Assembly (NCBI RefSeq): GCF_014489845.1
Contig: NZ_JABURY010000006.1
Span: 372,001 to 436,000, forward strand
From: Frischella japonica
Lineage (GTDB): Bacteria > Pseudomonadota > Gammaproteobacteria > Enterobacterales > Orbaceae
Length of the DNA stretch: 64,000 bases
Direction: 5' to 3'
This document shows positions 1 through 54,098 of the stretch, in pieces. A model generated the notes under the pieces. The model was not told the DNA's origin. It worked only from the letters and a program-made list of their open reading frames with translations, and did not search any database. The position numbers and the translations under genes were made by a program. Every line of letters begins with the position of its first letter. The first letter of the stretch is position 1.

Positions 1-1973
1 CGGCAATTAATATAACTAAATAGATATTGATCTTCACTTTGACAACATTCTAAAAAAAATTTACTCGCTTGTGGCAGATTATTTTTATTATCTTGATAAA
101 TGACACCCAACAAAAATTGAGCTAATTCAAAGGCCTGTTTATTAGCATTTTTGTCAATGTTTAAGTAATGCTGTTCTGCTTGATCGAGATTTTTTTCCTC
201 TATTTGAAAAATATAACCTAAATTTAGTTGTGCTTGGGAGTAAATCAAGGCGTTACTTTTATCAATGTTTAAGTAATGTTGTAGCGCAAGCGCAACATTT
301 TTTTTGTCAAATTGATAAATTTGGCCCAAATTAAATTGTGCTTGAGTATAAATTAACGGATCAACGCCATTTTCAATATTTAAGTAATGTTGTTGGGCTA
401 GCTCTAAATCATTCTTTTCGAATTGGTAGATTTGACCTAAATTAAATTGTGCTTGAATATATATTTTAGGATCATAAGTTTGATCTATATTGAGATAGTG
501 TATTTCAGCTTGCTCATAATCGGCTTCATTAAAATAAAACTGAGCTAATTCGAATTGTGCTTTAGTATAGGCTTTAGGATCATCTTGCTGAGCCACATTT
601 AAATAATGACGTTTAGCTTGTGCCAAATCTTTCCTATCATTTTGATATATCATACCTAAATTAAATTGTGATTTTGCATAAGCTTGCGGTTCATCATTTT
701 GCGTTACACTTGAATAATGGTATTGCGCTCGTTCAAGATCATTTTTTTCAAACTGATAAATATAACCTAAGTTGAATTGTGCTTTTGCATAAGCTTCACT
801 ATCATCATTTTTGGCAACATTTAAATAATGAAATTCGGCATATTCAAGATTATTTTTTTGAAATTGCTCAATATAACCCAAATTAAATTGCGCTTTTGCA
901 TAAGCTTCGCGGTCATCATATTTTTCAACATTTAAATAATAACGTTTAGCTTGTTCAAAATTATTTTTCTCAAATTGGTATATAAACCCTAGGTAGATTT
1001 GAGCCTTAGCAAAGGTTTCAGCATTATCAGCTCTTTTAATATTTAAATAATGTAATTCGGCTTGTTTAGGATCTTTTTTATCAAATTGATAAATTTCTGC
1101 TAAATTTAGTTGTGCCAACGCATATGCTTCAGGATCATCTGTTTGACTTATATTTAAATAGTGCTGCTCCGCCTGCTGAAAATTTTTTTTCTCATTAAGA
1201 CAAATTTGTGCTAAATTGAATTGAGCCTTTGCATAAAGTTCTGGATCGCCCTCTTTAATCACGCATGAATAATATTTTTCAGCCATTGCAAGATTATTTT
1301 TTTCCAGTTGATAAATCTCACCTAGACTAAATTGTGCTTTAGTATAATATTCAAGGTCATTTTCTTTCTTTATGTTCAAATAATGCTGTTCGGCTAATTC
1401 AAGGTTGTTTTTCTCATGTTGATAAATTTCAGCTAAATTAAATTGTGCTTTGGCATAAGTTTGTGTGTTATCGCTTTTCTTTATTTTTAAGTAATAGCGT
1501 TCGGCAAGTTCAAGATTATTTTTTTCCAGTTGGTAAATTTCAGCTAAATTATATTGTGCTCTGATATAAGCTTCGGCATAGTCGGTTTTATTAATATTCA
1601 AATAATAGCGTTCGGCAAGTTCAAGATTTTTTTTCTCAAACTGGTAAATTTTACCTAAATTAAACTGTGCTTGCGCATATATTTTAGCATTATCTTTTTT
1701 TTCTATGTTTAAATAATGTGATTCTGCTTTATCAAAGTTATTTTCTTCAACTCGATAAATATTTCCTAAATTAAATTGCGCTCTTGCAAAGGCTTTAGCA
1801 TTATCATCTTTGCTAATGCTTAAAAAATATTTTTCTGCTCGTCCGATATCTTCTTTATCAAAGTAATAAATGACACCCAATTCGGATTGGGCCTGTGCGT
1901 AACTCGCTTTACCATCTTTAAGCGTGATTTTTTTGAGTTGCCGAATTCTTTTGTCAATATTTTTTCCATCCAT
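1..1973 (-). CDS. Giant TPR/Sel1-like repeat protein, C-terminus beyond the window
   Basis: An open frame runs without a stop from ATG at 1973 to the left edge (657 codons seen). A short N-terminal head of about 25 residues is followed by 17 tandem units, nearly all 37 residues, with the pattern AxAQFNLGxIYQxEKNxLExAExHYLNI. Alternating small, Leu and aromatic positions are those of TPR or Sel1-like helical hairpins, so the protein is most likely an alpha-solenoid scaffold. There is no signal peptide, which suggests a cytoplasmic location. An AGGA sits just upstream of the start. It lies 57 bases downstream of the RadC-like gene on the same strand and is probably co-transcribed with it. The repeats are also clear in the DNA (period 111 bases), so copy number could change by recombination. 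Function unknown. Confidence 0.85.
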   Translation of the reverse strand, partial: MDGKNIDKRIRQLKKITLKDGKASYAQAQSELGVIYYFDKEDIGRAEKYFLSISKDDNAKAFARAQFNLGNIYRVEENNFDKAESHYLNIEKKDNAKIYAQAQFNLGKIYQFEKKNLELAERYYLNINKTDYAEAYIRAQYNLAEIYQLEKNNLELAERYYLKIKKSDNTQTYAKAQFNLAEIYQHEKNNLELAEQHYLNIKKENDLEYYTKAQFSLGEIYQLEKNNLAMAEKYYSCVIKEGDPELYAKAQFNLAQICLNEKKNFQQAEQHYLNISQTDDPEAYALAQLNLAEIYQFDKKDPKQAELHYLNIKRADNAETFAKAQIYLGFIYQFEKNNFEQAKRYYLNVEKYDDREAYAKAQFNLGYIEQFQKNNLEYAEFHYLNVAKNDDSEAYAKAQFNLGYIYQFEKNDLERAQYHYSSVTQNDEPQAYAKSQFNLGMIYQNDRKDLAQAKRHYLNVAQQDDPKAYTKAQFELAQFYFNEADYEQAEIHYLNIDQTYDPKIYIQAQFNLGQIYQFEKNDLELAQQHYLNIENGVDPLIYTQAQFNLGQIYQFDKKNVALALQHYLNIDKSNALIYSQAQLNLGYIFQIEEKNLDQAEQHYLNIDKNANKQAFELAQFLLGVIYQDNKNNLPQASKFFLECCQSEDQYLFSYINC

Positions 1974-45566: not shown

Positions 45567-45595
45567 TTTTAAAGCAAAATAATAAATGATATAAT
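45567..45595 (+). promoter_or_regulatory. Putative thrS operon promoter
   Basis: A consensus TATAAT lies at 45590-45595 with a weak -35 region 17 bases upstream (45567-45572). Initiation near 45602 would give a leader of about 100 bases carrying the tRNA-like operator. Confidence 0.5.
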
Positions 45596-45652
45596 TCGCG
45601 ACCATAAAATTTGTATCCCATTTTGAATTAATTTTTTTACCTAGCTGATGCA

Positions 45653-45675
45653 AGTGTACTGTCGTAGGGTACACC
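45653..45675 (+). promoter_or_regulatory. tRNA-Thr anticodon-arm mimic: ThrRS translational operator
   Basis: GTGTAC (45654-45659) pairs with GTACAC (45669-45674); T45660 and G45668 can add a wobble pair, leaving the 7-base loop GTCGTAG. In anticodon-loop numbering this places U at 33, CGU (a Thr anticodon) at 34-36 and A at 37. In E. coli ThrRS binds such an arm in its own leader and blocks ribosome loading. Here it lies about 31-53 bases before the thrS start, as expected. Confidence 0.75.
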
Positions 45676-45705
45676 ACTACATTAATAGGGTTTTAAGGAA
45701 TGTCC

Positions 45706-47634
45706 ATGCCAGTAATAACTCTTCCTGACGGAAGCCAACGTCATTATGAATCTGCAGTCACTATATTAGAAATTGCACAGAGTATTGGAGCCGGTCTTGC
45801 CAAAGCATGTATTGCAGGCAGAGTAAATGGTGAAAGAAAAGATGCCTGTGATTTAATTGAACACGATGCCAATGTTGCTATTATCACGGCGAAAGATGAA
45901 GATGGATTAGAAATTATCCGTCATTCATGCGCTCATTTATTAGGGCACGCCATTAAACAACTTTGGCCTAATACCAAAATGGCAATTGGACCTACCATAG
46001 ATAATGGTTTTTACTATGATGTTGATTTAGATCATACCCTTACTCAGGAAGATCTCGATGCATTAGAAAGACGTATGTTAGAGTTAGCCAAGAAAAACTA
46101 CGAAGTAAAAAAAGAAGTAGTCAGCTGGCAGCAAGCACGCGATGTCTTTTGGCAACGACAAGAGCCTTATAAAATTGCAATTTTGGATGAAAATATACCA
46201 CAGGATGCTAAACCAGCCCTTTATCATCATGAAGAATATATTGATATGTGTCGTGGGCCACATGTTCCTAATATGCGTTTTTGTCACCATTTTAAATTGC
46301 AAAAAATTGCTGGTGCTTATTGGCGTGGTGATAGCAAAAATAAAATGTTACAACGTATCTATGGAACTGCGTGGGCTGATAAAAAGCAATTAGATAGCTA
46401 TTTACAATTTTTAGAAGAAGCGGCTAAACGTGACCATCGTCGTATCGGTAAACAATTGGATTTATATCATATGCAGGAAGAAGCACCTGGCATGGTATTT
46501 TGGCATAACGATGGATGGACAATTTTCCGTGAACTTGAAGTATTTGTTCGTCTTAAACTAAAAGAGTACCAATATCAAGAAGTGAAAGGTCCATTTATGA
46601 TGGATCGTGTTCTATGGGAAAAAACTGGACATTGGGCAAATTATCAAGATCTTATGTTTACAACATCATCTGAAAATCGAGAATACTGTATTAAACCAAT
46701 GAACTGCCCAGGCCATGTGCAAATTTTTAATCAAGGTTTAAAATCATATCGTGATTTACCATTACGCATGGCTGAATTCGGTAGTTGTCATCGAAATGAA
46801 CCATCTGGATCTTTGCATGGTCTTATGCGTGTTCGTGGTTTTACCCAAGATGATGCACATATTTTTTGTACAGAAGAACAAATTCGTGGTGAAGTTAATA
46901 GCTGTATCAAAATGGTTTATGATATGTACAGCACCTTTGGATTTAAAGATATTACGGTAAAATTATCTACACGCCCGGAAAAGCGTATTGGTCGTGAAGA
47001 AATTTGGGATATGGCCGAAAGAGATTTGGCAGAATGTTTGACTGAAAATGGTATTGAATTTGAATATTTACCAGGAGAAGGGGCATTTTATGGTCCAAAA
47101 ATTGAATTTACCCTTCATGACTGTATCGGTCGTGCATGGCAATGTGGTACTGTACAACTTGATTTCATGTTACCCGACCGTTTAGAAGCAAGTTATGTCG
47201 GTGAAGATAATGATCGTCACGTACCGGTTATGATTCATCGGGCAATTTTAGGTTCAATGGAACGGTTTATCGGTATTTTAACTGAAAACTGTGCAGGTTT
47301 CTTTCCAACATGGTTAGCGCCAACGCAAGTTGTGGTAATCAATATTACTGACAATCAAGCAGATTATGTTAAAAAATTAACCGAAACATTACAAAATGCC
47401 GGTATTCGAGCCAAAGCAGATTTGCGTAATGAAAAAATAGGTTTTAAAATACGTGAACATACTCTAAAGCGTGTACCATATATGTTAGTATGTGGCGATA
47501 AAGAACTTGAAGCAGGAAAAGTTTCAGTTCGTACACGCCAAGGTAAAGATCTTGGTAGCTTTGCAGTCGAACATGTTGTAGAATTACTGCTCAACGAAAT
47601 TCGTACTCGTTCTTTGAATCAGATCAGTGATTAA
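45706..47634 (+). CDS. thrS: Threonyl-tRNA synthetase
   Basis: Charges tRNA-Thr. The 642 residues equal E. coli ThrRS. Order: TGS domain (1-61), editing domain with [10 protein letters not shown] and a later CRGPH, catalytic core with [10 protein letters not shown] (zinc Cys) and class II motifs, then the anticodon-binding domain. ATG 45706 is preferred over ATG 45700 because AAGGA lies 6-7 bases upstream and the start [11 protein letters not shown] is conserved. First gene of the thrS-infC-rpmI-rplT block. Confidence 0.97.
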
Positions 47635-47677
47635 AATGATCTGGTTTTGTTATTGTATTTGATTGGAGGATTTAGGT

Positions 47678-52851: not shown

Positions 52852-52883
52852 AAGCACTAACAAATGTTAGTGCTTTATTTTTT
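52852..52883 (+). terminator. Rho-independent terminator after ihfA
   Basis: AAGCACTAAC (52852-52861) pairs exactly with its complement (52866-52875) around AAAT, then TATTTTTT. Confidence 0.92.
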
Positions 52884-52885
52884 AC

Positions 52886-52922
52886 TGTGGTTCGCAATCC
52901 TCCCACAAAAAAAAACTAAGGA
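52886..52922 (+). promoter_or_regulatory. preQ1-I riboswitch upstream of queF
   Basis: TGTGG (52886-52890) pairs with CCACA (52903-52907) as stem P1. The loop starts TTCGCAA and ends in a C directly before the 3' arm, the position that pairs preQ1 in known structures. An A-rich strand ACTAAGGA follows. Its AGGA (52919-52922) can pair with TCCT in the loop (52898-52901) to make pseudoknot P2 and hide the queF ribosome binding site. This is the class I preQ1 consensus, six bases before queF. Confidence 0.85.
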
Positions 52923-52927
52923 AAATT

Positions 52928-53401
52928 ATGAGTAACGTTACACTACTTGGCGATCAATCTGTTCGCTATCCAACTGACTATTGTCCAAATATTTTAGAAA
53001 CCTTTGATAATAAACACCCCGGTAATGATTATTTTGTTAAATTTAATTGCCCGGAATTTACCAGCCTTTGTCCTATCACAGGTCAACCTGATTTTGCGAC
53101 GATTTATATTTCGTATGTGCCGAATATTAAAATGGTCGAAAGTAAATCGCTCAAACTCTATTTATTTAGTTTTCGTAATCATGGTGATTATCATGAAGAT
53201 TGCATTAATATCATTATGAAAGATCTGATTAAATTAATGGATCCTAAATATATTGAGGTTTGGGGGAAATTTACACCACGTGGTGGTATCTCTATCGACC
53301 CTTATGCTAATTACGGTAAACCTGGTACAAACTGGGAACAAATTGCGCTTAATCGTTTAGCTAATCATGATCTTTATCCTGAAAAAGTCGATAATCGTTA
53401 A
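52928..53401 (+). CDS. queF: NADPH-dependent 7-cyano-7-deazaguanine reductase, unimodular
   Basis: Reduces preQ0 to preQ1 in queuosine synthesis. The catalytic Cys in [12 protein letters not shown], the Asp that follows, and [16 protein letters not shown] with the NADPH-site residues are present. At 157 residues it is the short Bacillus-type form, not the two-module 282-residue form of E. coli. A preQ1 riboswitch precedes it, and queC follows. Confidence 0.95.
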
Positions 53402-53438
53402 TTTTTTTCGTACACAAATTATATCGGAACCGTTAAAA

Positions 53439-54098
53439 ATGCAAAATCGTAAAGCACTAGTGATATTTTCTGGTGGGCAAGATTCTACTACCTGTTTACT
53501 GCAAGCCATTGCTGATTATGGGCGTGAAAACGTTGAAACAATCAGCTTTCAATATGGTCAACGACATGCCATTGAGCTTGAAAAAGCCAAATGGATTGCT
53601 GACGATCTTGGTGTAAAGCAAATCGTCATTGACACTTCAGTGATTAAACAAACGACTAATAATGCCTTGATTGATGACTCGCAAGAGATTAAATCAGCTC
53701 AAGAAGGGAATTATCCGAATACCTTTGTTGACGGGCGTAATATGCTATTTTTATTGTTAGCCGGGTGTTATGCCAAACAGCACAGTATTAAAGATATCAT
53801 TATTGGCGTATGTGAAACCGATTTCAGTGGTTATCCGGATTGTCGAGATATCTTTATTAAATCCATGAATGTTTCGATGAATTTAGCCTTGGATTACACG
53901 TTTAACATCATCACCCCATTAATGTATCTGACTAAAGCGCAAACATGGGAAATGGCTGATAAACTTGGTTATCTTGATTATATTCGGCAACACACTCACA
54001 CTTGTTATTATGGGGTAGAGGGGGGATGTGGTAAATGTCCTAGTTGCGACTTACGTGAAAAAGGGTTAAATCAGTATCTAACCCATAGCTTTAAATAG
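53439..54098 (+). CDS. queC: 7-cyano-7-deazaguanine synthase
   Basis: ATP-dependent conversion of carboxydeazaguanine to preQ0. PP-loop FSGGQDSTT at residues 9-17, YGQRH, and the C-terminal zinc Cys cluster GGCGKCPSC are intact. ATG 53439 gives the usual start 8 residues before the loop; upstream in-frame codons overlap queF. The length of 219 is near E. coli (231). Confidence 0.95.

Follow-up and report, generated by a model that had tools for sequence, protein, structure and literature searches.

A hairpin in the leader of thrS, the gene for threonyl-tRNA synthetase (ThrRS), was located in the window (the whole 64 000-nucleotide stretch of DNA that was analysed) and was read, with a probability of about 0.9, as a translational operator of this gene and the equivalent of E. 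coli operator domain 2. The hairpin is real. Its stem covaries while G35 and U36 of the loop are nearly fixed, and its place, architecture and loop are as in E. coli, so that feedback by ThrRS is the best reading. The E. coli thrS operator is the textbook example of a bacterial mRNA that imitates a tRNA, and both the mechanism and this famous counterpart of the window element are known. The class-wide spread, an NGU rule for the loop, a triplet absent from the tRNA-Thr genes found and an apparently one-armed form in the family Orbaceae go beyond the known mechanism; among the open-licence PMC papers searched, none compared thrS operators outside E. coli.

Table 1. Parts of the thrS leader in the window.
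Feature	Position	Strand	Description	Basis
Predicted sigma-70 promoter	45568-45595	+	TTTAAA, 16-base spacer, TATAAT preceded by TG	Prediction; similar one in relatives
Expected transcription start	near 45602	+	From the TTTAAA/TATAAT promoter	Prediction only
Basal stem, 5' side	45640-45643	+	CCUA; partner UAGG 45686-45689	Sequence, folding
Lower stem, 5' side	45646-45652	+	UGAUGCA; mismatch C45651 x A45679	Sequence, alignment, model R1
Upper (anticodon-like) stem, 5' side	45654-45660	+	GUGUACU	Sequence, alignment, model R1
Seven-base loop	45661-45667	+	GUCGUAG; anticodon-like CGU 45663-45665	Sequence, alignment
Upper stem, 3' side	45668-45674	+	GGUACAC	Sequence, alignment, model R1
Joint of upper and lower stem	45675-45677	+	Conserved CAC	Alignment
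Lower stem, 3' side	45678-45684	+	UACAUUA	Sequence, alignment, model R1
Basal stem, 3' side	45686-45689	+	UAGG	Sequence, folding
Shine-Dalgarno	45694-45699	+	UAAGGA	Sequence
thrS	45706-47634	+	Threonyl-tRNA synthetase, 642 amino acids from ATG 45706	

Leader hairpin and its E. coli counterpart

The upper stem (Table 1) is formed by six Watson-Crick pairs and a closing U.G pair, which a loop of seven bases requires. The loop registers as U33, C34 G35 U36 and A37; the initial annotation had given the interval 45653-45675, the loop and these registers correctly, as read from the sequence. Its distance of 31-53 bases before the start likewise fits a start at 45706, from which the protein begins MPVITLPDG, as does E. 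coli ThrRS, with six bases between the Shine-Dalgarno letters and the start codon. An in-frame ATG at 45700 was rejected as the thrS start: it abuts the Shine-Dalgarno letters, and the MPVITLPDG start is the later one. Downstream of thrS, the genes were read by name (by eye) as infC, rplT, pheS, pheT and ihfA, in what we take to be the E. coli order. The infC gene of E. coli has a rare AUU start; in the window, infC likely starts at ATT 47678 after GGAGG at 47665-47669 (+ strand), where an ORF caller would choose TTG 47663.

The E. coli leader (L033) reads GUGAUCU-UUCGUGU-GGGUCAC-CAC-UGCAAA-UAAGGA. In both leaders the hairpin immediately precedes the ribosome-binding site of thrS, a 7 bp stem closed by U.G carries a seven-base loop with CGU at 34-36, and the stem is followed by CAC and then by the lower stem; the Shine-Dalgarno letters are identical to those quoted for E. 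coli in a passage of PMC3858243. The window differs in its extra basal stem, in CACUA where E. coli has CACUG, and in the position of CGU (-43 versus -33 in E. coli), and a second anticodon-like arm was not found for its leader. The predicted window leader is about 100 nt long, whereas the E. coli thrS leader has 162 nt. The E. coli element that matches the window hairpin in place, architecture and loop is operator domain 2.

The window ThrRS is full length and aligns to E. coli 1qf6 over 641 residues with no gap; the N-terminal domains and the anticodon-binding domain are present. It keeps N575, R583, R589, E600 and R609, which we take to be the loop contacts; structure 1kog presumably contains the E. 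coli thrS operator. According to the papers cited, ThrRS binds the E. coli operator, which imitates the anticodon arm of tRNA-Thr, and the 30S subunit is kept from binding (PMC9976931, PMC11088916, PMC7373986, PMC3858243), a change of the triplet switches control of the operator to MetRS (PMC9976931, PMC11088916, PMC7373986), domain 4 forms a further hairpin that resembles an anticodon arm (PMC9976931, PMC11088916) and the N-terminal part of ThrRS is needed (PMC7373986). PMC9976931 and PMC7373986 also describe control of an mRNA by a synthetase through an anticodon mimic for yeast AspRS and other synthetase mRNAs; these are eukaryotic and are likened here by mechanism, not by homology.

ThrRS probably switches off its own production via the hairpin. 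The leader RNA would fold as an anticodon-arm-like hairpin whose loop presents the threonine identity bases G35 and U36 to ThrRS. Free enzyme, when in excess of its tRNA, would bind this loop by the anticodon-binding domain, and the N-terminal domains of the bound ThrRS would hinder the 30S subunit at the adjacent ribosome-binding site downstream; tRNA-Thr would compete ThrRS off the leader, and thrS would then be translated. In Orbaceae a single arm would do the work. Of the E. coli-like feedback that had been proposed for this leader, the operator reading stood, by the match to domain 2 and the covariation, and the two-armed form was not supported. Gram-positive thrS T-box leaders also respond to tRNA-Thr; unlike the leader described here, a T-box RNA itself binds the tRNA. 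The Rfam search gave no T-box in the window.

Covariance models and the loop rule

Two covariance models were used, R1 (30 leaders) and R2 (74 leaders), the genus of the window being left out of both. R1 gave the hairpin 28.5 bits (E = 1e-4) and the next match in the window 16.5 bits; across the entire genome, with E <= 0.1, the hairpin was the only match (E = 0.004). R2, run unfiltered on the window, gave 26.4 bits for the hairpin versus 15.5 for the runner-up. Changes on both sides were found in six of the 12 pairs of the R1 alignment, and its covariation score was 0.338, compared with a shuffled mean of 0.160 and with values of 0.105 or less when the partner was slid. The stem pairing of 99.4% in the R2 alignment, which fell to 57.3% or less on sliding, is partly selection because the finder rewards paired stems and CACUG; the slide test and the two-sided changes (79 cells versus 15.8 shuffled) are less affected. 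In the Rfam search no family was at or above its gathering score at the window hairpin, and none matched the E. coli thrS leader at E <= 5. The thrS operators would outline an RNA family matched by none of the searched Rfam models.

The loops were tallied at 265 loci, which gave 262 elements, 198 of them distinct, scored by stem and CACUG with the triplet not used; the finder failed at L105 (which carries GGU), L106 (CGU) and L316. Base 34 of the distinct elements was C in 137, G in 43, A in ten and U in eight. G35 was present in 195 of the 198, U36 in all and a purine at 37 in 196. U33, which the initial annotation had read in the window loop, was present in just 164 and is not invariant. The three elements without G35 were L022, a real CUU, and two that the finder had mis-registered: L126, a decayed element, and L304, an eight-base loop with GGU in register by eye.

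Without deduplication, the loops comprised 41 CGU and one CUU in Orbaceae (n = 42), 12 CGU and two UGU in families f5 and f19 and E. coli (n = 14), and 70 CGU and ten UGU in 80 named leaders, eight of them from Orbaceae; all three sets had been picked by ThrRS similarity alone. Other loci of the order (43 looked at, 41 with an element, including L121, which was counted yet is unconvincing) gave 16 CGU, 20 GGU, four AGU and the L126 artefact. In other orders (86 looked at, 85 with an element) there were 50 CGU, 24 GGU, five UGU, five AGU and the L304 artefact, an NGU share that is biased upward because these elements were picked by models rewarding G35-U36. All four threonine anticodons occur across the operator loops, and the rule for the loop is NGU, not CGU, with base 34 free. 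Table 1 of PMC9976931 gives G34, G35 and U36 as the bacterial determinants of the threonine anticodon and G35 and U36 as the eukaryotic ones. A covarying stem with an invariant CGU or UGU had been expected in relatives; the covariation was found and the invariance was not, GGU and AGU occurring as well as the CUU of L022. Loss of the triplet or of the stem in close relatives had been named as counter-evidence, and the triplet was lost in one of the 42 Orbaceae elements, L022, where the stem is kept. This locus lies at 1448-1495 (+ strand) in G003, a genome of the genus Gilliamella, and either G35 was lost naturally there or the CUU is a sequencing error.

The genome of the window gave 45 tRNA matches, identified by ARAGORN on the fetched loci, one of them, a tRNA-Asp that lies at the end of contig C34, being truncated. 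The tRNA-Thr genes among them read GGU and UGU only, with no CGU, and their arms (CACCC-UUGGUAA-GGGUG and ACUGA-CUUGUAA-UCAGU) are unlike the operator stem. As neither tRNA-Glu nor tRNA-Ile is represented in this set, some tRNAs must have escaped the assembly or the search, and a tRNA-Thr(CGU) could be one of them. On this incomplete list the operator triplet imitates a tRNA-Thr arm without being copied from one, and the description of the arm as copied was dropped.

The probable operator in Orbaceae

Orbaceae, which include Gilliamella and Zophobihabitans entericus, share their order with Enterobacteriaceae. Family f19, which holds Pectobacterium versatile, belongs to the same order, and its ThrRS sequences are mostly 80-83% identical to that of the window. 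The lineage had been called distant and AT-rich: the second term holds, the first does not. Both thrS and the element (by R1) were found in 42 of the 44 family genomes, and every genome with thrS found has the element; the two others, G032 (67% complete) and G035 (74%), gave no thrS match.

The genus of the window scores lowest of the family with R1. Both of its genomes have CACUA for CACUG and a lower-stem mismatch at a nearly invariant pair. An insertion puts CGU at -43 and -46 in this genus; in other family members it lies at -31 to -34, except in L007 and L008 (-40) and L023 (-37, a value that depends on an uncertain start codon). The insertion also adds the basal pairs, CCUA/UAGG in the window and CUUA/UAGG (by eye) in the other genome (L004), which would keep the Shine-Dalgarno near the stem end. 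The lower stem is lengthened in L007 and L008 too (by eye). CACUA after the stem was also seen in family f186 (L334, L335, L336 and L342, from large genomes), in which the block between the hairpin and thrS is almost identical.

A second arm was searched for in about 110 bases upstream of the element, as hairpins with GU in register and loops of 7-8 bases in one run and 7-9 in another. Strict settings demanded six pairs with at least two G-C, relaxed settings five pairs with one G-C (loops of 7-9). Under strict settings an arm was found in 42 of 82 Enterobacteriaceae-like leaders (shuffle mean 2.0 with loops of 7-8, 2.8 with 7-9), 40 of these 42 lying at a near-equal distance with stems and triplets changing (loops, for example, AUUUGUUG, AGAGUGAA, AAGGUAAA and AAUCGUGA), and in 13 of 36 leaders from other families of the order (shuffle 0.9; loops of 7-8), three of 17 in a further mixed set (0.7-0.8), four of 59 in other orders (2.5-3.7) and none of 41 in Orbaceae (shuffle mean 0.1-0.2). 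Relaxed settings gave 59 of 82 Enterobacteriaceae-like leaders (shuffle 11.8), 17 of 28 in other families of the order (3.0), six of 17 in the mixed set (2.7), 22 of 59 in other orders (mean 9.4, maximum 16) and one of 41 in Orbaceae (2.1). Families f9 and f26 gave five of five (0.7) and three of three (0.6); the f9 matches lie at differing distances and so need not all be the same arm. In other orders the second arm is at chance level when strict and above chance when relaxed. Near 45608-45626 the window has a weak A-U hairpin (AAAAU...AUUUU), which was rejected as a remnant of the second arm, its triplet being out of register and relatives not keeping it (by eye).

Folding of the 100 bases upstream gave a mean z of 0.31 in 42 Orbaceae leaders (L005 at -2.45) and 0.49 in the window, compared with -3.07 in E. 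coli, a mean of -1.39 in 83 Enterobacteriaceae-like leaders and -1.36 in 36 other leaders of the order, to which negative values upstream terminators may contribute. This folding agrees with the predicted loss of the second arm in Orbaceae. The promoter predicted in relatives consists of TTTAAA (or TTGAAA), 16-17 bases and a TGn TAnnAT-like element. For 27 of the 33 leaders from the genus Gilliamella the predicted start falls 16-36 bases ahead of the hairpin, the script having picked another promoter site in the other six (it picked a different promoter in L005, L006, L017, L025, L026, L028, L031 and L035); in the window it lies 51 bases before the hairpin. A promoter so placed would often leave a second arm no room in Orbaceae.

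The Orbaceae operator has apparently been reduced to one of the two arms, the loss being a prediction from these searches, and since no domain 4 was found in this family the element was filed as a variant and not as the two-armed type. We give even odds to the wider picture, namely an old NGU-coded element of the GTDB class Gammaproteobacteria that is one-armed in Orbaceae, near the promoter, where it regulates a dimeric synthetase with a triplet, CGU, found in no tRNA-Thr of the window genome, the second arm of E. coli being an option that some lineages have lost and perhaps never required. Should the NGU rule and the arm loss hold, nature has carried out a mutagenesis in which base 34 is free, G35-U36 are fixed and one arm is enough, and the question of why E. 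coli has two arms for a dimeric enzyme becomes directly testable.

Several observations count against the operator reading: the CUU of L022, the broken lower-stem pair and lowest family score of the window's genus, the second arm not found, the 76 of 247 order genomes without an R2 match and the ordinary folding. Some of them would suit a relic or ribosome-standby structure, that is, a descendant of the operator that lost its second arm, represses weakly in Orbaceae and is kept for spacing or initiation; the empty second-arm searches in Orbaceae, the loss of G35 with the stem retained in L022 and the altered CACUG motif all point that way. We consider it unlikely, however, since CGU is kept in 41 of the 42 Orbaceae elements while the rest of the loop varies, and a spacer alone would have no need of G35-U36. 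That the hairpin serves another factor (a ribosomal protein, small RNA or RNase), with NGU incidental, is very improbable: the CAC-ACUG part, which has no tRNA counterpart, is conserved as well as the loop (the finder favoured it), but the matches precede thrS, are almost always single in a searched genome and carry each of the four threonine anticodons but hardly ever another triplet. A chance hairpin can practically be dismissed, as the independent model R1 gives a single match in the genome and the stem covaries in relatives, even though single-sequence folding is ordinary against shuffles (hairpin, z = -1.11, 33 of 200 shuffles folding equally well; predicted whole leader, z = +1.17, 178 of 200 equally good) and its energy, not being significant, was rejected as proof of the hairpin.

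Distribution beyond the family

R1 matched 117 of 247 genomes of the order (E <= 0.1) and 17 of 274 of the class (E 0.01). With R2, matches were obtained in 171 of 247 order genomes (E 0.01), 89 of 252 class genomes (E 0.05) and 52 of 299 phylum genomes (E 0.01), almost always one per searched genome. Among the class genomes matched by R2, 87 lie outside the order; 75 of these were examined, the other 12 having E values of 0.003 to 0.046; the match directly precedes thrS in 74 of these 75 (15 of 15 and 59 of 60), the exception being L316. Among the 14 of 52 phylum-search matches examined, all 11 within the class precede thrS and the three outside it do not. The element was rejected for these three matches outside the class: G759, G782 and G569 have no ThrRS start downstream and no tRNA there, and loci L331 and L332 look like protein-coding DNA (by eye).

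The order genomes without an R2 match at E 0.01 comprise some of 0.3-1.1 Mb and others whose size is normal (f8, f15 and f24 include such genomes). At L126, in a 1.2 Mb genome (G189, family f19), the operator before thrS looks decayed, and no match was obtained in three further small genomes belonging to f19 or f25; operator control may go with genome reduction.

Elsewhere in the window, a PreQ1 riboswitch was matched at 52881-52925 (+ strand; RF00522, 54.5 bits), and the ORFs that follow it, 52928-53401 and 53367-54098, read like QueF and QueC (by eye).
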